The position numbers and the translations under genes were made by a program. From assembly GCA_026874595.1 (NCBI GenBank), contig CM049321.1:23181979-23245978 (forward strand): a DNA stretch of 64,000 nt. Reading direction: 5' to 3'. The DNA is from Sipunculus nudus. Its lineage: Eukaryota; Annelida; Sipuncula; Golfingiida; Sipunculidae. Within the stretch, counting starts at the first letter, position 1. The number at the start of each line of letters is the position of its first letter. The notes under the pieces were generated by a model that saw only the letters and a list, made by a program, of their open reading frames with translations, ran no database searches and was not told the origin of the DNA. Below are positions 2,511 through 58,639 of this stretch, in pieces.

Positions 2511-2814
2511 TTCAGGACACAGATGAAACCACAGCTGAGAAACTGACATAACTGCTGTCATTTGACAGTCTCAAAAACAGAAAAAAACTCGTAAAAATAG
2601 AAAAAAATGCAAGTGGCGCCACCAGTTTCCAAAAACTAACAACTCTAGTCGTGGTCAATATACAAGCAAGATTCAGGGCAATCCATGTATTAATCATCAA
2701 CATACTTGAGGTTTTTTTTTTAAATTATTCTGGGGGAGGGGGTATTTTTAAGCCCTATAGCTCGAAGGATATCGGCCACTCTGACCTAATTCCAGGTTTA
2801 TACCTTTACCTCAG

Positions 2815-3135
2815 TTGACTTCAGAAGCGGATCCGTGGGGGGGGGGGGGGGGGTCCAGGGGGTCCGGACCCCCCCCCCCCTCCTTTTCATCAGAAACAAC
2901 GTTTTTTTTAAGGGCCTCAAACAAACTTTATGACGCTACAAAATCCGGAAAGAGGCTGGATCAACACCAAAGTCGGATCGGATCTTCCTTGACCCATTCC
3001 GGAATTACCCTGATAATTTCATGAGATTCCGGTCATGATTGCATGAGCTATGCTGTGAGGAAATACACACACACTAACACTCACACATGAACGGGAATGA
3101 ACGCATAATCTAACGACGGAGGCAAACATATGAAT
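2815..3135 (+). repeat. 3' tail of a dispersed invertebrate repeat, with G/C homopolymer insert
   Basis: Contains ATGACGCTACAAAATCCGG, GATCTTCCTTGACCCATTCC, GCATGAGCTATGCTGT and ACACACACACTAACACTC. The run ends in GAACGCATAATCT-ACGACGGAGGCAA. I recognise this as the 3' end of a repeat frequent in marine invertebrates, probably a non-LTR element tail. The same unit lies at 21660-21880 and, more compactly, at 47395-47645. A run of G followed by a run of C sits at 2837-2880. Confidence 0.5.
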
Positions 3136-3789
3136 TAAGTATCCGTAACCCAACCTAGTGGAAGTTTACTTTTAGAATTATATATATATTTGTAACTTTC
3201 CAACAATTTAAAATATCTGTATGGGTATGTATACGTATGTATATTGACCTTTATCAGTGCACCAGGAGCTGTACATAATTAAATTTTAAATACAAAAAGA
3301 TGTAATCTAACAATTTAATATATGATATTATCAAAGTTCAAAGTTAAAGTGCTTTTCATGAATATATTTGACGGCATTGAGACAGTTGGAATATGGCTCG
3401 CTCACGTTCCTAAAGCCCCGGACTCGTAAAAGACGGACTTGGATTCGAACCAAGGCCTAGCATTCGCACTCAGGTGGTTTGGACTCTACTACAAAACTGT
3501 ACACACATAAGTTACCTGCTGGTGTGAATAATGTTCCTCTCAGCTGGCCTTCTCTTATTGGTTGTCTGGCGACCCCTTGACCCAAATGACCTCGTGTCAA
3601 CACCTGCTGACCCAGAAAACTTTCCATCAGTCTGGGGTGAGAGCACGTGCTTGCGTCAAGATGGCCATCCAAAACCGATATGGGTACTGAGTATGGTATG
3701 TTGACGTCTTTTTTACTTAGCGCTAATCCAGGAGATTGTCCAGGTGCCTGTTTCATACTCCAGAATAAACCCATAGGCTCCACTCCTAA

Positions 3790-3790
<1 letters not shown>

Positions 3791-3829
<39 letters not shown>
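3791..3829. repeat. (AT)n microsatellite at the exon 2 acceptor, copy C
   Basis: The dinucleotide run ends five bases from the acceptor AG of exon 2 on the minus strand. Copy B has the equivalent run at 22512-22571; copy A does not. Confidence 0.9.
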
Positions 3830-3833
<4 letters not shown>

Positions 3834-4803
3834 ACGAAGACAAATAAATGAGGGGAAAATCCTGGGCCGATCCCGGAGTCGAACCTAGGTCGGTGGCATA
3901 CAAGTCCGGCGTACCAACCGCTTCGCTAGAAAAGCAAGCTTCACTAGCGCCTTTATGTCACCCCGTAACACGTACACCCCCTCTTAAGAGCGTTCTGCTG
4001 CCAGAACAAGACTAATTATCCCAGGAGTCACACTTTGGTGAGCTTACTCCCTGGGCCACAAAGTTAACCGTCACGTTAGACGAGCCCCCAATTTGTTACG
4101 AAGACAAATTGTTGAGGGGAAAAATCCTGGGCCGATCCGGGAGTCGAACCCAGGTCGGTGGCGCACAAGTCCGGCGAACCAACCGCTTCGCTAGCAATGC
4201 AAACTTCGCTAGCGAGACAGTTCGGTCCGCTTTTATGTGCACCCCGTAACACACCCCTTTTTAAGAGCGTTCTGCTATCAGAACAAGACTAATTATCCCA
4301 GGAGTCACACTTTAGTGAGCTTATTCCCTGGGCCACAATGTTAATTGTCACGTTAGACGAGCCCCCATTTTGTTACGAAGGCAAATAAATGAGGGGAAAA
4401 TCCTGGGCCGATCCCGGAGTCAACCCAGCTCGGTGGCGCACATGTCCGGCGTACCAACCGCTTTGCCAGCAAAGCAAGCTTCACCAGCGAGACAGTTCGG
4501 TCCGCTTTTATGTCACCCCGTAACACCCCCCGCCCCCTACTAAGAGCGTTCTGCTACCAGAACAAGACTAATTATCCCAGGAATCACACTTTGGTGAGCT
4601 TACTCCCTGGGCCACAAAGTTAACCGTCACGTAAGACGAGCTACCATTTTGTTACGAAGACAAATTGTTGAGGGGAAAAATCCTGGGCCGATCCAGGAGT
4701 CGAACCCAGGTCGGTGGCGCAAAAGTCCGGCGAACCACCCTCTTCGCTAGCAAAGCAAGCTTCACTATCGAGACAGTTCGGTCCGGTTTTATGTACACCC
4801 CGT

Positions 4804-4807
<4 letters not shown>
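3830..4807 (-). mobile_element. Tandem array of a miniature LTR element (TRIM): four LTRs, three internal spacers
   Basis: LTR modules at 3830-3970, 4094-4251, 4371-4525 and 4650-4807 all start TGTTACG and end CGTAACA. They alternate with spacers of about 120 bp. Read on the minus strand, each spacer opens with TGGGGGCTCGTC, matching the 3' end of tRNA-Pro as a primer binding site. It closes with AAGAGGGGG-type polypurine next to the following LTR. Inside each LTR, minus strand, are TAGCGAAGCGG (fits box A) and GGTTCGACTCC (fits box B). A T-arm-like hairpin (CCTGG/CCGGG) surrounds box B. No protein is encoded, so it must use proteins from elsewhere. It is inserted in the (AT)n of copy C intron 1. 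The first LTR is shorter by about 16 bp. Confidence 0.75.
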
Positions 4808-22628: not shown

Positions 22629-23438
22629 TGTAGTGAATTTAGTGTTGTTTTTCCTCTTTCATTATATATAGGTGTTTGTGTGTGATTTGAAAACTCGTTA
22701 ATGGTTCAATGTCGACTCTAAGATGCACAGATAACTAGATGTTACAAGTACTTAATAATGAATGATTCTGTTTCATTCTGAATTGAAGTGAGTGTAAAGG
22801 GTATGTTAGCACACCTGTGTCTATATACCCGTCAATCTGTTTGCTTTTTAATGTTTGTGTAACAACAACAAAAAAAATCAAAGTATTTTCTAATAAGAAT
22901 ACATATAAGCGAATGTGAGCCTTGAACCAAGATGGATTCCATTAAATAAGGGTCTGATAAATTTGCGATTTCATAGTCATTTCGATATCATTGTTACCTC
23001 CATCATGAGTGATGTTTTCTGCTGTGTTTGTCTGTTTGCCAGTATGTTTATGCAACAAATAACTTTTACGAAAATTTGTTGGGCAGGAGTGAGTTTATTA
23101 TCTTTTTCTGCTGATTTATATAGGGGACACATATTCGGTAGGATTTGGCGGAGGTAAGCGCTCATTATGTGTTGTCTAGCTGAAGTACCTGTATAACTGC
23201 CCCCTGTCGACGGCACTGCAGACAAGTCCACGCGTCCATTATGACTGGCCGTATAGTGAGCATGTGATATGAATATTTTATTGTTTTCGTCTATCCCGGC
23301 GGTGATTGTGATTGGTTGTGTTGCCTGGAGCCCTGTAACCTCTATTTTAATAGGGTCGTCAATGAGTGCGTGCGCAGGCGTCGCTGACACATTGACTGTG
23401 GCGCCCTCTCTGGTCAGAACTTTTGTAAGTAAGCTCAT
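12925..23438 (-). CDS. ACOT: Peroxisomal acyl-CoA thioesterase, ACOT/BAAT family (copy B), 8 exons
   Basis: Close paralogue of copy A with identical exon lengths and phases. Exons in transcript order: 23438-23189, 22506-22237, 20009-19840, 18234-18121, 17344-17259, 15185-15098, 14071-13870, 13049-12925. The spliced frame is open for 434 residues. Visible family marks are GSYTG/VEPMGLFWSM across the first junction, GPFPALIDLYG in exon 3, nucleophile Ser253 in GMIGISKGGE, QGTDDQN (Asp341/342), GAGHFIEPP (His375) and the same C-terminal SKL peroxisomal signal. Introns are longer than in copy A because they hold an LTR, a TRIM, a Harbinger-type MITE and other repeats. The block GTATCAAAACAGCGAGAG followed by GTAGGG near 24050-24070 is conserved upstream of copy C too, and may be the donor end of a 5'UTR exon. 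No coding lesion was seen, so I infer an active gene. Confidence 0.87.
13071..13136. repeat. (AT)n microsatellite upstream of ACOT exon 8, copy B
   Basis: Starts about 20 bp intronic of the exon 8 acceptor. Copy A has the same microsatellite in the same place (33402-33458), so it predates the A/B duplication. Confidence 0.9.
14380..15045. repeat. Degenerate GAGTCCGAGT-rich repeat in copy B intron 6
   Basis: Two clusters of GAGTCCGAGT/AAGTCCGAGTC variants (14390-14500 and 14735-14830). A third block, GACTCCTGACTCGACCC, leads into TTTTGCCACCCCTAG at 15030-15045. The last part resembles the end of a hAT-type MITE. The matching other end was not found. Confidence 0.35.
15289..15743 (-). mobile_element. 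Truncated LTR, R/U5 side
   Basis: Begins TGTTACGGAACCCAA and matches 16191-16670. It is interrupted at CGTCCATTT by the TRIM at 15744. The shared AATAAATTAT on the minus strand would be the LTR poly(A) signal. Confidence 0.6.
15744..16176 (-). mobile_element. Second TRIM copy (LTR-internal-LTR)
   Basis: LTRs at 15744-15899 and 16021-16176 are about 156 bp with the same minus-strand box A (TAGCGAAGCGG) and box B (GGTTCGAATCCC in the second LTR). The internal spacer has a polypurine tract beside one LTR. On the plus strand GACATGCCCCCA is a worn tRNA-Pro primer site. The second LTR starts CGTTACG instead of TGTTACG. It is inserted between two LTR fragments in copy B intron 5. Confidence 0.72.
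16191..17070 (-). mobile_element. Solo LTR of an LTR retrotransposon, 880 bp
   Basis: On the minus strand it runs TGTTACAGATG to CCGTAATA; the parallel copy at 15289 ends TG...CA. A TATA box, TATAAATA, lies at 16774-16781 minus. An AATAAA is near 16345. These give the expected U3-R-U5 order for minus orientation. No internal region is present. It is GC-richer than its surroundings at 16860-17050. Confidence 0.65.
17091..17126. repeat. (CT)n microsatellite followed by AT run
   Basis: TCTCTC run, then ATATAT to 17156, in copy B intron 5 next to the solo LTR. Confidence 0.9.
18321..19309. mobile_element. PIF/Harbinger-type MITE, 989 bp, in copy B intron 3
   Basis: Nearly perfect inverted ends of about 68 bp (18321-18389 and 19243-19309) start AGGGGCGTTCACACCTATCC. 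TAA flanks both sides (18318-18320 and 19310-19312), matching the 3-bp TWA target of Harbinger elements. A second inner pair of the same motif lies at about 18410-18450 and 19170-19216. The middle is (ATT)n/(AT)n and non-coding. It is absent from copies A and C, so it inserted after duplication. Confidence 0.75.
19551..19600. repeat. (AT)n microsatellite, copy B intron 3
   Basis: Uninterrupted AT/TA dinucleotides. The reading frame through it is an artefact. Confidence 0.9.
20042..20125 (-). repeat. Partial extra copy of ACOT exon 3 in copy B
   Basis: Degenerate duplicate of the exon 3 segment at 19920-20009, starting at the shared CTTGATGCGAGCAGGGCGGC-like sequence. It is not expected to be spliced. 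It is orthologous to the relic in copy C. Confidence 0.6.
20235..21010. repeat. Dispersed repeat rich in TGACCTTGACC blocks (copy B, intron 2)
   Basis: Paralogous to 1690-2510 and carried along by the B/C duplication. The blocks near 20412, 20570, 20705 and 20842 are more degenerate. It ends with the same AGACAGACGGACAGTGT and GGGCATCCGCTT sequence. Confidence 0.6.
21660..21880 (+). repeat. 3' tail of the same dispersed repeat (copy B, intron 2)
   Basis: ATGACGCTACAGAATCCG, GGTTCTTCCTTGTCCCATTC, GCGTGAGCTATGCTGTTAGC, then ACACACA and GAACGCATACTCTAGCGACGG. It matches 2930-3135 closely. Confidence 0.5.
22512..22571. repeat. (AT)n microsatellite at the exon 2 acceptor, copy B
   Basis: Ends within six bases of the acceptor of exon 2, leaving only CCTCAG as the non-AT part of the tract. 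Confidence 0.9.
22572..22638. repeat. Inverted repeat enclosing an (AT)n core
   Basis: ATTCACTACAGACA on the left is the exact reverse complement of TGTCTGTAGTGAAT on the right. About 40 bp of AT lies between them, so the strand could fold into a long hairpin. Confidence 0.75.
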
Positions 23439-30000: not shown

Positions 30001-30945
30001 TTAAGATTAACGAAAACGTAAAGGATCAATTATTATTAATAATACCTACCTTCTGATTAACGAAAAAATAAAGGACCAATTATTATTTACAATACCTACC
30101 TTCTGATTAACGATAACGTGAAGGATCAATTATTATTTTAATACCTACCTTCTGATTAACGATGACATAAAGAATCAATTATTATTTATAATACCTACCT
30201 TCTGATTAACGATTACGTACAGGACCAGTTATTATTTATAATACCTACCTTCTGATTAACGATAACGTAAAGGACCAATTATTATTTATTATACCTACCT
30301 TCTGATTAACGACAACGTAAAGGACTAATTATTATTTATAATACCTACCTTCTGATTAACGATAACGTAAAGAATCAATTATTATTTATAATACCTACCT
30401 TCTGATTAGCGGTAACGTAAAAGACCAATTATTATTTATAATACCTACCTTCTGATTATCGATAACGTAAAGGACCTATTATTATTAATAATACCTACCT
30501 TCTGATTATCGATAACGTAAAAGACCTATTATTATTTATAATACCTACCTTATGATGGACGATAACGTAAAGGATCAATTATTATTTATAACACCTACCT
30601 TCTGATTAACGATAACGTAAAGGACCAGTTATTATTTATAATATCTACCTTCCGATTTACGATAACGTAAAGGATCAATTATCATTTATAACACCTACCT
30701 TCTGATTAACGATAACGTAAAGGACCAGTTATTATTTATAATATCTACCTTCCGATTAACGATAACGTAAAGGATCAATTATTATTTATAATACCTACCT
30801 TCTTATTAACGATAACGTAAAGAACCAATTATTATTTATAATACCTACCTTCTGAGCAACGATAACGTAAAGGATCAGTTATTATTAATAATATCTACCT
30901 TTTGATTAACGATAACCTAAAGGATCAATTATTATTTATAATATC
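30001..30945. repeat. 50-bp minisatellite, about 19 copies
   Basis: The period is exactly 50 bp, with one 49-bp unit. The consensus core is TTCTGATTAACGATAACGTA followed by AAGGACCAATTATTATTTAT and AATACCTACC. Units differ by a few substitutions each. There are no unique spacers, so this is not a CRISPR-like array. The right edge runs straight into the right half of the TTCGCGAA-type MITE (30946-31045). Confidence 0.92.
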
Positions 30946-41527: not shown

Positions 41528-44130
41528 TTAACATAAATCACATTCAAATGTTGTTTGTGAGTCATCAACCCCGGCACATTCTGTGTGCATCCACGAGAGG
41601 CATTTCTGACACTGAATCCAGTCATCATTCAACGTATCAAGGTAACATTCACGACAGTCTGGACACTTTTCATTTTCTCCAGCATTTACAGAGTTCTTCC
41701 GCAGGTGCCCCTCTTTACGGGATATGTGCTCTCCTTTTTTTTGAAACTTTCCCTTTTCTAATCAATTTCTGATTTTTAGTGCCAGTTTTTCTCACATTAG
41801 CTTTGTTTGACGTTTTCTCATTCCGCGGTTTGACTGTCCGGACAGATTCCGACTTGCTAAGTTTTTTTTTCTTTTTTTTTTGCAGCTTCAATCTGCCGTT
41901 TACACGGTGATGTTGTGATAACTTCCGCATGACATACTTTTCTTTTTCGTGTAGACGTTTGCCTCAAGGCTCTTGGAACTGGAAGCATATCCCGGAAGGA
42001 CTGAGACTTATCTGCATCAATATATGGCTCCTGAGACATACAGTGAGCAGACTCTGATCCTCCACAATTTTGAGGTTCTACAGGTGAGATCTGGTCCTCT
42101 GAAGTGGCAAGTTTCTCTGGTCTTTGAAAGGCAACCATAGGTAAGAGTGGCTTCTCTGAAATACCAGTGGTCTCTGTAACCCGGGGCCCTTTAGGAGACT
42201 CAGGTGAGACAGGATTCTTTGAAGTGACAGAGTTTTTAGACATGCTCTTATCACTAGCGTCTTCAGGTGAGATTTGATTTTCTAAACTGACAGATATCTC
42301 TGGTCTCTCGGAATCAAGGGGACCGGGAGGTGAGAATGAATTCTCTGAATTAGAACTTGCGTCGCTTCTCCTGGTATCCTGAGCGCCGTAAGATGTGTCA
42401 GGGTCTTTTGAAATAGATATCAGCTCTGCTACCCCAGAACCCAGAGGGTCTTCATGTGAGACGAGGTGTTCGAACGCGGCAGGGGTCCCTGGTCCTCCGG
42501 AATCCTGAGGACCTTCGGATGAGACTTGTTTCTCTAGAGTGGAAGGGATCCCTAGTCCTCCGGAATCCTGAGGACCCTCGGGTGAGACTTGTTTCTCTGA
42601 AGTGGCAGGGGCCCCTGGTCCTCCGGAATCCTGAGGACCCTCGGGTGAGACTTGGTTCTCTGAAGTGGCAGGGGTCCCTGGTCCTCCGGAATCCTGAGGA
42701 CCCTCGGGTGGGACTTGGTTCTCAGAAGTGGCAGGGGTCCCTGGTCCTCCAGAATCCTGAGGACCCTCGGGTGAGACTTGGTTCTCTGAGGTGGCAGGAG
42801 TCGCAGGTCCCCTGGAAGCCTGAACATCCAGAGTTGTGCTAGGTTTCTCTAAAATGTCAGATTCCTGTGATTCTCTGTTGTCTGCAGTGATAGGACCATC
42901 TGTGAGTTCAATGGCTATGAAGTCTTCCTCAGAAAAAATATCTGGGTTGAAAGGGTTTATTCCAGATTTTTTAAACCCCGACACGGCATTTTTCACTGTT
43001 TCCGCCCTGCAGTGGCCTTCGGAAAAGAGCTCTGCCACCTGCCATTCAGTCACTACTCTGCCCGGATGGTTGCGCATCCATGTCTGTACTGCGGAGTCAT
43101 AGTGAAGTTAAGACTCTTAAACAATGATACGTCAAGTGGCTGCATCCGATGCGTGCAATGAGAAGGAAGGGATATGACGAGTACATTGTTGGAACGAGCC
43201 ATGTCAATGACAGCTTAGTTTTTGGTGTGACTTGTGTGCCCATCTAAAATGAGCAGTACCTTTGCTCGACGTTGTTTAGGCTGGATTGAATTTAAGAAAT
43301 GGTCAAACCATATCTCAGATAGTCCCTCATTAATCCACCCTGTCTGGTTAGCAACCCCAATGCTATCTGAAGGTCCCTTGTCAATTAGTTTTGGTTTGAA
43401 TCGCACGCGGGGAAAAATTAACATGGGGGGCACAAAACATCCAGCAGCGGAAGCACAAACAACTGCAGTCACAGTTTTCCCCTTTTCAGCACTGGTCAGT
43501 GTACCAACATTTCTTTTCCCCTCTTTGCTAATATCTTGAGAGGGTTTTGACAAACTGTATAACCGGATTCGTCAACGTTAAAGTTATTCTGGGGGGGTAT
43601 TAGGCGCTGTCCTGTTTTAGAAAACAACACGTCTTGTAGTTTCTTGTAAAATATATCCACCTTTTCCTTGTTGAATCCGATAGCCCTTTGCACGTAGACC
43701 GCCTCTGGAGAACGAATTGAATATCGGGGTTACGTCTCAGGAACCCTTTTAGCCAGTCTGGACCTGCCATCTGTTTTTCTTTGTTGAACGGATTGTCTAT
43801 TTGTTTTTTTTTTCTCGCAAAATGAATATACAAGATGCTGAACGTCCTTTATGGTAAGACCAAACAAGCGAGCTTCCATGTCTAGAATTATTTCGGCCAA
43901 CTCTTCTTCCTGTTGTGTGTTTAATACTGTGGGTCGTCCAAACTTCTGTTCAACCCCTTCACCACATATAGCTTTTTTTAAATGCCTTCGTAATGTTTCT
44001 CTCGGAATTCCATGTTCACGACTTGCTTTCTTTTCTGATTTGCGATGAATGATTACGTCACGAACTGCTAATTGGAGGGTGCAAGGGTCCAGTTTCCACG
44101 TTTACTCTGGCTTTTATATCTGCGTACCAT
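41528..44130 (-). pseudogene. pogo/Tigger-type DDE transposase with C-terminal PHD-like finger, broken
   Basis: Cut-and-paste transposase remnant. In order on the minus strand: a psq-type helix-turn-helix (VRDVIIHRKSEKKASREHG, PRETLRRHLKK), then a CENP-B/Tc5-type second DNA-binding part (MAGPDWLKGFLRRNPDI). In the catalytic domain the first Asp is in NFNVDESGYT, the second in LLILDGHTSH, and the third in HRMQPLDVSLFKSL. The pogo signature TEWQVAELF with GFKKSGINPFNPDIF follows. Next come a Pro/Ser/Gly-rich tail with 63-bp tandem repeats and a lysine-rich region. The last part is a Cys/His finger (CPDCRECY, DDWIQCQKCLSWMHTEC, CDLC) ending at a TAA at 41528. A TAA at about 43215 and frameshifts near 43810, 43700, 43090 and 41900 show that it is inactive. 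Confidence 0.8.
42440..42835 (-). repeat. 63-bp coding minisatellite inside the transposase tail
   Basis: Six units start every 63 bp (42470, 42533, 42596, 42659, 42722, 42785). Each encodes a 21-residue PxTSENQVSPEGPQDSGG-type repeat. The period is a multiple of three and the frame is kept, so it arose while the ORF was still translated or very recently. Confidence 0.85.
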
Positions 44131-51480: not shown

Positions 51481-51610
51481 ATAATATTATAACATATTTG
51501 GTAGGCAATACGCTGACGTATTGGCAACCAGTGTAAATCAATAAATATGGGTGTTATATAGTGAAACATCTTTGTATCGTGTTTAATAGTGAAAGCAAAT
51601 TTGTAATTTC

Positions 51611-51736
51611 GTGTATTATTTTTTTGTTAAAAGCAAAAACTCCCTTGATCTTGAAAGAAGGTATCATAAGCTTCAAGAAAAATTAGGGTGGCATTTTTCT
51701 TAACATTCTAAGGGTATGAAATCCAAGATGGCGTCC
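51611..51736 (+). repeat. Left terminal inverted repeat of the nuclease-bearing element
   Basis: Mirror of 57042-57161. By eye, roughly three quarters of positions match, with small indels. The inner boundary is sharp just after CCAAGATGGC. Confidence 0.7.
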
Positions 51737-52199
51737 ACAATGGCAGCCGCACAAGAATAATGCGATATCTTCGCAAGTACATATGATACAATAACAAGTA
51801 AGGTGTCCAAATATATGTTTTTTTCCGACAAGGAAACTAATGATTATATGCATGATCTACCTGCCAAATTCCAAGATGACCTCAGAAATGATCGCCAAAC
51901 ACCCATAATTGTTCGCTATACCTTTGCAAACATTACCGGGTCAATACGATGTTGTAATTACGAAACCAAATATCACTTGAAATCATGTATTCATCTCAAA
52001 GAATACATAATTAGCAAGTCAACAAATATCCAAATAAAATGAAGCAATCTAATTACTGTACAATCTTGTTAAAGTCATTTAAACACGAAAATACAGTAAG
52101 TTGTACTGAATAAATGCATGTCTTTCAAATAGTAGTTTTTACCAAGGGGCATCAGTTGAGTTAATTGAATGCATGAATGTCATAGAAGATAACACCTCA

Positions 52200-55100
52200 A
52201 TCTTCACAGTCCTCATCTATGCCTGGCTGAATATCTTTGATGTTGCAACTGAAAAGCCAGCATCCGAAAACTTCCGTACATGGGATATTGTTCTTGCGAC
52301 AGCTGCATTTTCTTCGCATCCATGTTTGCACCCACACTTTATGAGGTGCAATACTGCTTCAGGAGCTGGTGGATTGAAACAGCGAACAGGAGAGAAGTGA
52401 CTCAAATGTCAAACCAAATGCAGCTGGTCCTGGGAGACGTGGTGGATTTTCAGTAGCCTTTCTCCAAATCATGGATAGCATGAGTCTTTGGTTCTGCCAG
52501 CAAATTTCCCAGACATATCGGAACCTGTCAGAGCATTAAAATCCAACAGTGCAGAAGCACGCTTTGGTCCCAAGATATTGTATATGCTCTGCACAGAGAT
52601 GTCCCCTCTTCAGCCTGCCACTTCCTGTGAGAAAGGTTGTACATATTGGTAAGCTTGGATACATGTAGACAACAAGACGTCCGTGTCTGGCGAACTGACA
52701 ACAAGCTCTGCATCATTGGGAACATTACGAGCATGCAGTACAAGCAAAATGTCTGCTTCTTCTTGGCTGTGAGTGAGGAGTGAACATGGAATATCAGCAT
52801 TGCCCTTTGTTTGTCACAATTAGTTTTTTTCAATCTCTTGTTGGGGCTGTTGCTGTGACATACAACCTGACCAAATACTCGGTCAGTGCTCCTTTCGTCC
52901 AGATATCTGAGAGAAAGTCCTTCAGGGAAATGTTCTGGATTAAAGTGGTGTCTTTCACTTGGTAATATGTTGACTTTTCCTTGGTCCTTATTGTCCTCAT
53001 CTGTTCTTTGAGTGATGTTCTTATGTACCGGTCGAAGACCAATCTGACCTCATCATACTGTGCTGCCATGTTACAGATTATCTTCAGAAAGGCATCTGCA
53101 AAGTTTTGACATGTTTTCATTTGTTCTGTTTTGGTAACTGAATTAACTACAGTCTTCCATCAATGATGATCACTTTGTGTGATGATGATTCACCTGCTGG
53201 ATCCACATGTGCATGTTCCCCTGTTGTGTCTGCAACCTGTATGGGTTCTTGCGTTGCTTGGTTATCAGATAGTTCACTTCCAGTTGCCCCGATCCTGTCA
53301 CCTTGGACCTGTTGTGTTGTATCCAGCTTCTCAAGATGATGGAGTACTGAAGCCTTATCATATGCAAACAGGAGGGATCCATCTGAAGCAAACAGAGATC
53401 GAGGCACCACACCAAACTCGTAAGTACCAATGCACTCCTTGAGGTCCAGCTCTGGTCGACTTCTAGAAATAACAATAAAGCGTTGCAAAAGTCCTCACTC
53501 TTCTTTGATTTAGACAACCTTGTCTCCAATTCTAATTTCGGACATTGCATTTGCACTTTTGAAAGTTCTCAGTTTCTTTTTGGACATTTTGTCCCACACA
53601 GAGAGTTTTCCTTCTGTTAGGCGTTCATTGACAAAACTTTCAAACATCTGTTTTCAAATCTCATCACGCTGAATGATATCGTTGGTAGCAGTTTCAGTCA
53701 TAACTGCTTTGGTGAGCAGGTTGTTTCCGTGCTCATGAAATACTGTGGTGAGTTTGACTGCGTTTTGTGTTAATCGGGTGAGTTTTCCCCTTGTAAGCTC
53801 ATGATGCTGTGTTCTTTTCTCTTTGTTGCCAGTGCAGTACTGTCTCTCAAATTCTTGTTGTACATTCGAAAGTTCAGGGGCGATGAGAAAGTATTTGTCC
53901 AGTGATTTTTCATTCTGCGTGATTCCAACAATGCCTCCAATAACCTTGAGTTCACGATTCTCATGTTCAATCCCATGGTCCGGGCCTATTGATGTGAATC
54001 CAGCAACACCTTTGGTGACACAAAAATTCCCCTTCATGAACTCTGCCCAGATCTCAGGATGCTGCTGTTCTGTCTGTTGCATAGTGGAAATGTACAGTGG
54101 TAGAAGGCGCGCATAGTTTAAATGATCATGGGCAAAGAAGTACTTCGTTAGTGATTCCTGACTCTGCATGTGCAGCAATAGGTCGCGTTGTCTTGTGGCT
54201 GGCACAAATTGGAGGATGGTCTCGAACTGCTTCATGTAGTTTCCGATGAAACGCTGAATTTTGTTTTCAGTGTCTTCAGATTGTTTGATCTTTCGGAATA
54301 TGTCCCTGGATTCTAACATTTCGAATGTTTTCGTAACGGCATCACTGAGATTGTGTCTGCTTCCTGAGTCAGTATTGATGTCTTGCTGATACGCTTCTCC
54401 CAAAAGAGTGGACGTTTCCTTCAAGAAAGCTTTTTCATCAGGCTGAAGTTCAAGGAATTTTCGGAAGTACAAACTGTACAAAGCGAGCAAGTTAATTGTA
54501 TGAGCTTCCTGTGCTCGATACATGTGTTTCCCGTTGAGTATTTGTGTTACTGTTATAGGTGAGTAAAGTCCAGCCTCGACCCATGCCTGGTCAATACCAC
54601 TGCCTTCCACATATTTTCCCAAGGCAGCCAGTGCCCAGAACACGATGTGCAGCTCACCAGGGCGAAACAAAACTGTTTCTGGATGTTCTCTCTCTTCATC
54701 CACAACTTCATGGCCATTTCGTACAGCTGAAGATCAAGAGTCACAACTGTGATAGCTTCTGGTCCCATGGCATGAGTAGCGATATCACGTGCTCTCGTCA
54801 GGGTGTCATAACCTGTTGGTGGCAAGCGTATTAAAGGTGGTACTAAGGCAATGTTTGTCTTGAGGCCAGACAGAGACAATAGAGAGTTGAAGGCGCCCCA
54901 TGTTCCTGGAGAAGTTGAACTTGGTTTTACTTCTACTTCGCTTTCGTTGAGGTCCAAACAGCCAATAATCCATGCCACATCCTTCTCCTTATTTGGCTCT
55001 GTGCTGGACTTGCAGGAATTCAGTGTGCAAACACACTTTTTGTTCGTTGGTACTGGTTTGACCGATCGATGTCAAGTGGTGTTCTTGGGGATTTGTCAGA

Positions 55101-56697
55101 TTCACTCTGGTATCCCCAGTGGCAGTGCCATGGAGTGTATTAGTGCCACAAGCTGTTGATTCAAGAAAATCTATGTTGTCCAGCGCAAACCAAACAAACA
55201 TGTCATTCACCAACCAAGGTGGTCGATAAACACCTCCAATGGATTTAATCTTCTCAAGAACAATATTTGTGATGGCAGTCTCTATCTCCATAACCTTTTT
55301 GTACGGAACGGTGAGGTCTAGTTGGCTTAGCATCCCTACAATGGACTTGGACCTAGTGTTTTTGTGCACATGTAGACCTAAGCCGACGCTAATGGGAGTT
55401 ACAGTGCGGTATTTGAAAGCGACGTCTTCATGTTTAGTTTCATAGGAGACCTGCCGATCAGATTTGTATGCACACACAAAATGTTATGCCAACACAGATA
55501 CACTCTGGTTCAGAGATTTGGTCCTGATGGTCGTTTTAACCTGATGTAAACCTTGGGTAGCATCCTTGCAGAAGAGTTGAAGCAAAGTAGGTGGTTCATA
55601 ATTATCAAATGTTCCTTCGAACTTCCATGGTGTTGCACTTGCAATGTCTCTCCTCAATATTTTAGCTGCTTTCAGAAGGATTTTCACATCTTCTTTTAGG
55701 CTTTTTGTATATGTGGCCATAGCATCAGCTAACAGGGTTTCTTTGGCTTTGGTAGAAAGGACTTGCTCAGGTTTGGTTTTTCTGGAGGCCTGGTGAAGTG
55801 CACATCAGGGATGTTGTCCAGAATCAGTTGCTTTAAGTGTGGTTTGTATCGTGGATTGTTGGGTAAGGCGAACCCATTGGTTTCTAGAAAACCATGATAT
55901 AATTGTTCAATGTCATTCATATTCAAAGCAGAACTGTTGGCTGGGTCATTGATTTCAGTTTCCACCATGTCAAGTATCTCCAGGTTAGACACTAACCGAG
56001 AAAATTGAATCTGTTGTTTCGGGAGTCTACTGGCTTTTTCTATGTCTCGCTTTGCATGGCTTAAGCACAGAAGATGATATTTCATGTCCTCACCAACTGC
56101 TGTAATGAGATCGGATGAGCCTACAATATTGCTCAATCTGACTTTGAGAAGTGCATTTTTTTTGTCTGTTGGTCAATGGCGTTGAGATGAGCTCCCATAT
56201 TTTCAGTTGCAACATCGTGCAATTTGTCTGCTTGAACTCCCAGACAAATGACACACATTTCCTTGTCAAATGTCTGACTTCAGGTAGATCGCTGTGACGT
56301 GGAAGCACTTTCAGATGTAGCATCAAATTTTGGCGCCGTCCTTTTTTTTATTTTACATAACTGGCACTGCCTGTCGCTTGTCCTTTCTCGTATCTGATCC
56401 TAGCTCGTTCAATGCATGTTTTATGTGTGAGATCCTTATAGCATATCTTGTGGTAGGAAATACCAGTCTGTAACAGTTCATCGGCAGACAAACCTTAATG
56501 CGACACTTCAATGCAGAGAACTCTGTTTCCCCATATGAACATCGAACATTAGTGGTTGTAATTAGTTTCTCTACTGAAGGCAAAGAAGGATGAAGCACAT
56601 AGTTTGTATAATCTGTCTGCTTGCTGCTCAACTGACAAATAAAGCATAGCGCAAAATCCACCCTTTTTGACTTCTTGTTAGATGCTGACTCTGCCAT
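52200..56697 (-). pseudogene. Large multidomain protein with FEN1/XPG-like nuclease and CXC domain, broken by frameshifts
   Basis: One intronless coding region of about 1,450 codons starting at ATG 56697 (MAESASNKKSKR), now split by several frameshifts and stops. In order: Cys/His modules (LCFICQ with YHKICYKDLTHKTC; then MCVICLG with KYHLLCLSH); a middle domain with PISVGLGLHVHKNTRSK, WFALDNIDF, NTLHGTA, VVTLDLQLYEMA and GELHIVFWAL. A nuclease domain resembling FEN1/XPG/PIN-like proteins follows: IIIDGR, VRLVFDRYIRTSLKEQMR, HSQEEADILLVLHA, SSPDTDVLL and LTGSDMSGKFAG. Last is PPAPEAVLHLIKCGCKHG with CSCRKNNIPCTEVFGC, a CXC cysteine cluster. I recall similar multi-copy unnamed proteins in invertebrate genomes. 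The role is inferred: a transposase or its partner. Confidence 0.7.
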
Positions 56698-57041
56698 CTT
56701 GCTTAATTTGAGGCCTCTAAGCTATGTTATCATGGATTATGGTTGCTGTGGGTACTTGTAGCCTGCAAAAAAAGAAAAGAATGTATTTGTATTAACACCA
56801 TAAGATTGATAAAAGGAACTTTATCCTAATGCGAACAATCACTGCCGATTACTGAATTCGAACATCAAGTTCCGGGCAGCCATATTAGAATGGCGGCCTT
56901 TGTCTGAAAGTGTACAAAATAAAAGATTAGTTGTCAGGTGAAAAAGATTGTTACCATAGTCACCTTTATTTACAATTTTCCAAACAGTATGCATGCTGAA
57001 AAAAATTTTGCTTCAAATTTATGCCTTTTTGCTAATGGGGC

Positions 57042-57161
57042 GGCCATCTTGGATTTCAGTCCGTTAGAATGCTAAAATAATGCCACCCTATTTTTTTTAA
57101 TGTTTATACTATCATCTAACAAAATCATTTGAGTTTTTGCTTTTACCAAAAAAAAATACGC
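57042..57161 (-). repeat. Right terminal inverted repeat of the nuclease-bearing element
   Basis: Reverse complement of the left end. It reads GCCATCTTGGATTTCA, then AATGCCACCCTA and GAGTTTTTGCTTTTAC on the plus strand. Confidence 0.7.
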
Positions 57162-58639
57162 AGAGTTTTTTTTTATGACAAATGAGCCTACACTATAACA
57201 AGAGCTGAGCTTTTGTGAAAATTTCGTAATTTGTATAGCGTAAGATGGCAGTCCAAACGTGCACTTGACGTCACCGTCGCCTGAAAAAGCAGATCCTTTG
57301 GTCACTCAAGAACCATTCAAGAAAGAGCCACGATCATAAAAGTCAGACGAAGCGAAAGAAAATGCACAGAACGTTGTAGTTTTACACTTTACACTGTAGT
57401 TGTACACTTTTCTTGTCTGAATGGGCCTCAAAATCACAGAATTTTGAGTCCAAGTTGATCTTCGTACAGTTAGTCTTGTTTTTTTTATGAAGTTTTCCAA
57501 ATCTTTTCCATTCAAATATCTTCAAATCGCTGCCTGTTTAATGAAACAGCCTCTATGTGATACAAAAATACAGTTGGAGTAAATAAATTGACATTAACTG
57601 CCTTGGTATATTATCTGAGTACACTTGTCTTTTTTTATGACAGATTTTTTTTTCCTTTTTCATTGATGACTTACAAAACAAGAAAATATTATTACAGTTG
57701 GCTGACTATGAAGATTCGTTTCTAAAGGAAGATTTGTTCTGAAGATTGGTTCCAAATTAATTTTGAAAAACGCTTTAAATATGATAAGGTACCAGTTTCC
57801 TATTTCAATATTTGAGAATAACACTAAGCCTCGGAGGTGTTCTCAAGCTGACATTAGGGTGACTAAAATTCAAGAGAGGGACAAATTCATATTAAAATAA
57901 TTATATATTTAATTGAGGGCTGAATCAAATATTTTAACTAATATTTTGAGTGTATAGATGTTCCATTTATGATTTAGATTTAACCACGATTTGGACACCG
58001 TATATTAACATATGTTTTAAACTGGGTATCAGTGTAAAATAACTGGCTATTTTCAACAGCTCAAGTTTGGAATCAAGTCAACCTAAACTGCTGGACTTTA
58101 AATTACTTTTCAATTACTAATTAGACCACTTTAATGTGCCTACCACAGCCCAAACTGGCTGTTCCAGTAGTGAATGAACCATTCAGTAGCTATGCATACC
58201 GGGTTGATGGGTATTCTTCGATCTGACAGTCACAAGACTTTCTTATGTCAGTGAGGCAAAGAAACTGCTATAGACAATACCTTGATTGGACAACCTATTC
58301 GTTGACCCAGATACTTGGTACTCAGAGATAAGGTAAGATAGGGTAAGGTACCCCTGGCGCAGTGCAATGTTTACCTAGCAGTTGCACTTAATGTTCAACA
58401 CGAAACTATGGTCCCTTTCATGCATTGTGTCATATTGTCCGAAACTGAAATATAAAGGGTTTGCATAACCCTAAAAGTTTACCTGTATAAAGATTCTGAG
58501 AGCGGCTTGTCTGAGAAAAAAAAAATTGTAGAACAGTATGGGATATCTAAGGATGCATTGGGCAACTTATCAAAATATTAGACAGATTTAAACAAAAGGA
58601 TCAATGCTTTTAATTAGCTTATGTCTATCGATATATGTT

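Follow-up and report, generated by a model that had tools for sequence, protein, structure and literature searches.

The Academ superfamily of DNA transposons and its AcademX lineage are said to go back to Kapitonov and Jurka in 2010 and to Kojima in 2020, the latter reportedly assigning the AcademX nuclease to the XPG type. Short and constant target duplications are usual for DDE integration. Academ is listed as one of 20 Repbase superfamilies with a DDD/E transposase (PMC9587614), and two lineages are distinguished: AcademX, which possesses a nuclease and produces duplications of 3 or 4 bp, and AcademH, which possesses a helicase and produces duplications of 9 or 10 bp, the difference in length being linked to the helicase or the nuclease (PMC10045372). 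One hundred Academ elements curated from bivalve genomes have a mean length of 5565 bp (PMC10294476). The window analyzed here is a 64,000-nucleotide stretch of Sipunculus nudus DNA (GenBank assembly GCA_026874595.1, contig CM049321.1, positions 23,181,979 to 23,245,978 of the forward strand; coordinates below are those of the window). Positions 51587..57195 are occupied by an element that very probably is an inactive cut-and-paste DNA transposon of the AcademX (nuclease-encoding) lineage of the Academ superfamily. A preliminary description of this DNA had recognized a DNA transposon here, which is borne out by inverted repeats, 3-bp duplications and gap-free empty sites. Its further proposals, that no named superfamily fits and that the element defines a new transposon class, are not sustained: the gene possesses a conserved D-D-E triad, and a lineage with the same traits, a nuclease and duplications of 3 or 4 bp, already is in print as AcademX. 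The kind of element thus appears to have been named already, with the focal element as a further member.

Ends, copies and insertion sites of the element

The limits of the element were set at the points where similarity among aligned copies stops, TAGTG at 51587 and CACTA at 57195. Inverted repeats flank the gene as described initially, but the ends lie further out than was first proposed. The features of the element are as follows.

51587..57195, gene on the minus strand: whole transposon copy, 5609 bp, with ends TAGTG...CACTA from aligned copies
51587..51745, plus strand: left terminal inverted repeat, about 160 bp, from arm comparison and copy alignment
57030..57195, minus strand: right terminal inverted repeat, about 165 bp, from arm comparison and copy alignment
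51584..51586: left target-site duplication, TAA, from the element ends in aligned copies
57196..57198: right target-site duplication, TAA, from the ends in aligned copies and from empty paralogues
52197..56697, minus strand: remnant of a single transposase-nuclease gene, frameshifted, from an ATG at 56697 to a stop ending at 52197 (end counted by hand)
55178..55180, minus strand: codon GAC, presumed first catalytic Asp in a DNID motif, Asp in 12 of 12 covering rows
54733..54735, minus strand: codon GAT, presumed second catalytic Asp in a TLD motif, 14 of 14 covering rows
53966..53968, minus strand: codon GAA, presumed catalytic Glu in a DHGIE motif, 12 of 12 covering rows
52480..53190, minus strand: remnant of a FEN/XPG-like nuclease domain, limits approximate, from comparison with copies and profile searches
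52477..52477: deletion point of about 245 bp just downstream of the G-x-D motif region, the sequence being present in 6 of 6 other copies
52240..52335, minus strand: remnant of a C-terminal cysteine cluster (CXC), limits approximate, from comparison with copies

The arms are 77% complementary between 51619-51683 and 57090-57154, and 78% complementary between 51695-51745 and 57030-57080. When taken from the 51587 and 57195 ends they yielded an alignment score of 120, compared to a maximum of 31 in 500 shuffles. Terminal inverted repeats are a trait of Academ and AcademX elements.

Copies of the element were sought in the host genome (1,426,538,692 bases in 153 contigs) with the two end sequences. 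The search skips very common words and its counts therefore are lower bounds. Each end query produced at least 12 matches, all at the same seven places, namely the window, C9, C11, C6, C3, C17 and a second place on C16, and parts of the gene are present at all seven. The recurrence of the ends together with the gene that had been predicted thus was observed, and no independent miniature inverted-repeat transposable element (MITE) with these ends was among the matches listed. Both ends are kept in five of the seven copies, which measure 5609, 5996, 7852, 5974 and 5924 bp; the C17 copy is without the right end and the second C16 copy without the left. The greater length of the C9 copy is due to an internal insertion of about 1.86 kb (L009, about 2687-4551). 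An extra transposase fragment, 81% identical, is situated at C16:31998515. The window copy shares 91–95% substitution identity with the six others over aligned parts, and the focal family therefore is, as judged by this divergence, not freshly active.

The family extends well beyond these copies. The nuclease piece of the gene matched at least 150 genome rows, several per copy in places and the weakest with an E value of 0.26 (best 150 of 217 candidates), and the transposase piece matched at least 98 rows at E values up to 1e-5 (88 of 401 candidates scored). The 98 transposase rows were merged by hand into 81 loci, focal copies included. A same-strand nuclease match no more than 6.5 kb downstream is present in at least 60 of these 81 loci, and an upstream one in none among the matches listed. 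Twenty divergent loci, picked for long frames, were fetched for their nuclease. The transposase piece was matched in all 20 and the nuclease piece passed a threshold of 1e-3 in 19; the exception, L022, aligns nevertheless and is 98% identical to L016. Two of three closer relatives (L035 and L036) possess both parts and the third (L037) the nuclease only. A scan of viral contigs revealed no relative. In L027 and in L028 (1-968 and 6246-6730) the inverted repeats match in several registers, which in L028 are stepped by about 163 bp as if they comprised tandem subrepeats.

Perfect 3-bp duplications (TAA, TAT, ATA and ATA) flank four of the five focal copies that retain both ends. Bracketing inverted repeats were detected in 12 of the 20 divergent loci, and ends were placed in ten of these, with L028 and L030 left out. 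Eight of the ten exhibit a 3-bp duplication: TAT in L016, ATA in L017, GAG in L019, TTT in L025, TTG in L031, TAT in L032, TAC in L033 and ATA in L034. Altogether, 12 of 15 elements with placed ends possess the duplication, compared to 26 of 210 cross-paired flanks of different elements, and the constant target duplication that had been anticipated thus is apparent at 3 bp. With the same ends, duplications of 4, 5, 6, 8, 9 or 10 bp were found in none of the 15 elements. A boundary slid by one base still fits in 10 of the 15, and 3-bp and 4-bp readings therefore are not separable in those ten.

To look for empty sites, the two flanks of each of four focal copies were fused around a single duplication, and the products were searched against the genome. 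The flanks of the window copy are part of a dispersed repeat that is matched at 32 other places with about 70–79% identity, and in 23 of these (counted by hand) the match continues for 20 bases or more to either side of the junction. All seven paralogues of this flank that were fetched are gap-free across the insertion point, where six show a single TAA and the other (L096) AAA; the empty paralogous sites that had been predicted therefore exist for the window copy. Six joined flank pairs also were searched, but the search was saturated by one repeat and the best 40 of 1208 candidates were scored. For the relative L017, at least 37 places match all 220 joined bases with 96–100% identity, and two of these sites when re-read were equal at 219 of 220 bases with one differing base and no gaps. 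As the empty sites of both the window copy and L017 are free of gaps, these insertions are real events that involved the whole unit. The target into which L017 inserted is itself a high-copy repeat, represented at the same 37 or more places.

The transposase and nuclease parts of the gene

The gene pieces in the window copy are spread over three minus-strand frames, the longest stop-free stretch being 359 residues, and about 241–248 bp that are present in the six other copies are missing at 52477. With a frameshifted gene from which about 245 bp are missing, the window copy is dead and unable to make the protein any longer. An uninterrupted gene was found in none of the seven focal copies, among which the longest frame comprises 1001 residues (C11). 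In the relative L016, by contrast with the broken window gene, a single frame of 1471 residues lies inside inverted repeats and a 3-bp duplication, and encodes in order an N-terminal cysteine stretch, the triad, the nuclease and the CXC cluster. The initial view of one large intronless gene thus is supported by L016 as to the absence of introns, but does not hold for an intact single frame in the window. The cysteine modules, DNIDF motif, FEN-like nuclease and CXC cluster that were noted originally are all present across the copies; Pfam TCR/CXC matched weakly in 3 of 20 nuclease rows (best E value 0.038).

Conservation of the triad was counted over the covering rows of transposase alignment A2. 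The two Asp residues and the Glu were retained in every covering row (12/12, 14/14 and 12/12); as judged by this conservation, the DDD/E character of an Academ transposase is present. The first Asp is situated within the DNIDF motif remarked on previously, and in the focal protein the second Asp and the Glu follow at +171 and +427 residues, respectively. These residues are presumed from their conservation to be the catalytic triad, which argues that the gene product combines a DDE-type transposase with a FEN/XPG-like nuclease. Pfam DUF6589 was matched by 10 of 24 transposase rows (best E value 1.6e-6), an indication that this Pfam family has, at least in part, a transposon origin; a literature search for DUF6589 found no mention of it. 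Other Pfam matches listed involved one to three transposase rows and none was better than an E value of 0.001. Neither Pfam transposase models in the middle domain nor a PDB profile search with alignment A2 gave a match, Pfam scans of the focal pieces produced nothing usable, and a single-sequence PDB search returned chance matches only. Values of dN/dS (nonsynonymous to synonymous substitution) for near-identical pairs were below 1 in 7 of 8 cases for the nuclease and 6 of 8 for the transposase, but the counts are small and the pairs overlap, and these values were given no weight.

The presence of a FEN/XPG-like nuclease, as put forward in the preliminary description, was supported by three comparisons. 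A 20-row nuclease profile searched against all PDB sequences retrieved exonuclease 1 (EXO1) first with an E value of 0.006, and EXO1 accounted for the top four matches, by way of two collinear stretches in the VFD..S.K..R and GCD..G.G regions. The NCBIfam model for the flap endonuclease Xni was matched by 2 of 19 relatives (best E value 5.1e-5). Alignment by hhalign with 12 archaeal FEN1 proteins gave a score of 31.5 (E value 0.0036), whereas 100 column shuffles reached at most 24.5 and the two reversals 18.6 and 16.6. In the hhalign comparison, FEN1 motifs are paired with FD, DTD, GxD and the first Glu of EEAD, while the Ala of EEAD is opposite the second FEN1 Glu; IDG is not included in the aligned part. 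In the covering rows of alignment A3 the carboxylates are conserved in IDG (17/17), FD (18/18), EEAD (E 15/17, E 17/18, D 18/18), DTD (D 17/18, D 18/18) and GxD (18/18), and their order, IDG, FD, EEAD, DTD and GxD, is that of the FEN/XPG family. At EEAD, L016 possesses D for the second E and is without E at the first position. When alignment A2, in which some rows run into the nuclease, was compared to FEN1, a match of 30 columns only was obtained (E value 0.14). Overall, the weak to moderate sequence similarity points to a FEN/XPG-like nuclease in the C-terminal part of the gene.

Probable assignment to AcademX and alternative explanations

Comparison with AcademX was by description, and nothing contrary was found. 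The two share membership of a DDD/E superfamily (PMC9587614), a nuclease and a duplication of 3 or 4 bp (PMC10045372), here 3 bp in 12 of 15 elements, and the focal length near 5.6 kb is close to the 5565-bp mean of bivalve Academ elements (PMC10294476). AcademH also belongs to Academ but is described with a helicase and duplications of 9 or 10 bp (PMC10045372), in contrast to the nuclease and 3 bp of the focal family: nuclease models but no helicase model were among the matches listed, and a duplication of 9 or 10 bp was found in 0 of 15 elements. FEN1, EXO1, XPG and Xni resemble the focal nuclease in acidic motif order and, weakly to moderately, in sequence, but the latter is fused behind a transposase and is unmatched by Pfam XPG models. 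KolobokE, KolobokD and KolobokP likewise combine a DDD/E transposase with a nuclease (PMC9587614), but the nuclease folds are different. No paper that brings together Academ, XPG and transposon came up in a literature search.

A number of results weigh against the AcademX assignment and the evidence behind it. Membership is argued from architecture, duplication length and size. Among the nuclease data, the two EXO1 stretches were not significant singly (E values of 9.8 for VFD..S.K..R and 6.5 for GCD..G.G), the hhalign probability with archaeal FEN1 was only 9%, Pfam XPG models matched no nuclease rows, and a genome search with Pfam XPG_I produced 10 rows of which none is within 21 kb of the compared nuclease loci. 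The 3-bp duplication is absent from 3 of the 15 elements with placed ends, namely the C3 copy, which has both ends, and L022 and L027, and when 10 further relatives, in which ends had not been placed, were scanned for end motifs, no duplication-flanked pair emerged. The joined flanks of C11, C9 and C6 matched only their own flanks in the genome. No nuclease was among the matches listed for 21 of the 81 transposase loci. Conversely, L037 (1 of 23 divergent nuclease loci) gave no transposase match; its nuclease frame lies at 3092-4162 of 7 kb that were fetched, and the locus is either a truncated copy or a nuclease apart from a transposase. Finally, bracketing inverted repeats were absent from 8 of the 20 divergent loci. 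Homologues of this type had been regarded at the outset as fatal to a transposon, but are not taken as refuting one because several are more than 96% identical to repeat-bearing siblings and have been shortened, either by the limits of what was fetched or by truncation. L018, L020, L021 and L029, four of the eight, are 95–98% identical over long parts to repeat-bearing siblings or to each other, and some of them are range-cut or truncated.

The eight loci without repeats and the solitary nuclease of L037 are what might be expected if a gene or gene family of the host lay between a pair of unrelated MITEs. However, the end matches listed are all at copies of the gene, and both the duplications and the empty sites relate to the unit as a whole; the probability of this explanation is close to nil, and both the MITE-only and the host-gene readings were rejected on the basis of the empty sites of the whole unit. 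The original notion of a new and unnamed class of transposon, taken in the form that the FEN/XPG-like nuclease acts as the transposase, draws on the retention of the nuclease carboxylates across families that are mostly 22–40% identical, and on the failure of any Pfam transposase model to match the middle domain. It is very improbable in view of the invariant D-D-E triad upstream in all covering rows, a short constant duplication of the type that DDE integration usually generates, and the description of AcademX with these traits (PMC10045372). A separate DDE superfamily that is sister to Academ and captured a nuclease on its own is an improbable solution also. The DUF6589 matches in 10 of 24 transposase rows, for a family that the literature search did not find mentioned, and an AcademX assignment that is argued from description are in its favor, but the family agrees with AcademX in its nuclease fusion, in the length of its duplication and in element size.

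Elsewhere in the window, a 406-residue frame with 63-bp tandem repeats is located at 41857-43077 on the minus strand, and its start presumably resembles the C-terminal end of a pogo/jerky-type transposase. A 153-residue frame at 22977-23438, also on the minus strand, is perhaps a host gene exon, with what we take to be a resemblance to the N-terminal part of acyl-CoA thioesterase/BAAT enzymes. Tandem arrays are present at 30005-30943 (50-bp unit, 18.8 copies) and 3948-4807 (277-bp unit, 3.1 copies). Rfam and tRNA scans of the 64-kb window gave no matches.

A proposed role for the nuclease

During transposition, the N-terminal cysteine modules may bind the TAG...CTA ends, after which the D-D-E active site would cut and join DNA, as its conserved triad implies. 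Insertion would proceed with the 3-bp stagger that is evident in the duplications and empty sites. The fused FEN/XPG-like nuclease would most likely trim or cut a branched intermediate, for example at the non-transferred strand or at a flap at the junction between element and host. More specifically, it is proposed tentatively, as a possibility that is open to considerable doubt, that the nuclease is a catalytic partner that performs the second-strand cut or resolves the branched intermediate after the action of the D-D-E site, and thereby sets the 3-bp duplication of AcademX as opposed to the 9-10 bp of the helicase lineage.

A set of proteins in this genome that Pfam barely recognizes is shown by these results to be a lineage of transposons, for which genuine insertions and empty sites exist. 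The panel of relatives, including L016 with its open frame of 1471 residues, provides the means to ask why a D-D-E transposase needs a flap-type nuclease of its own.

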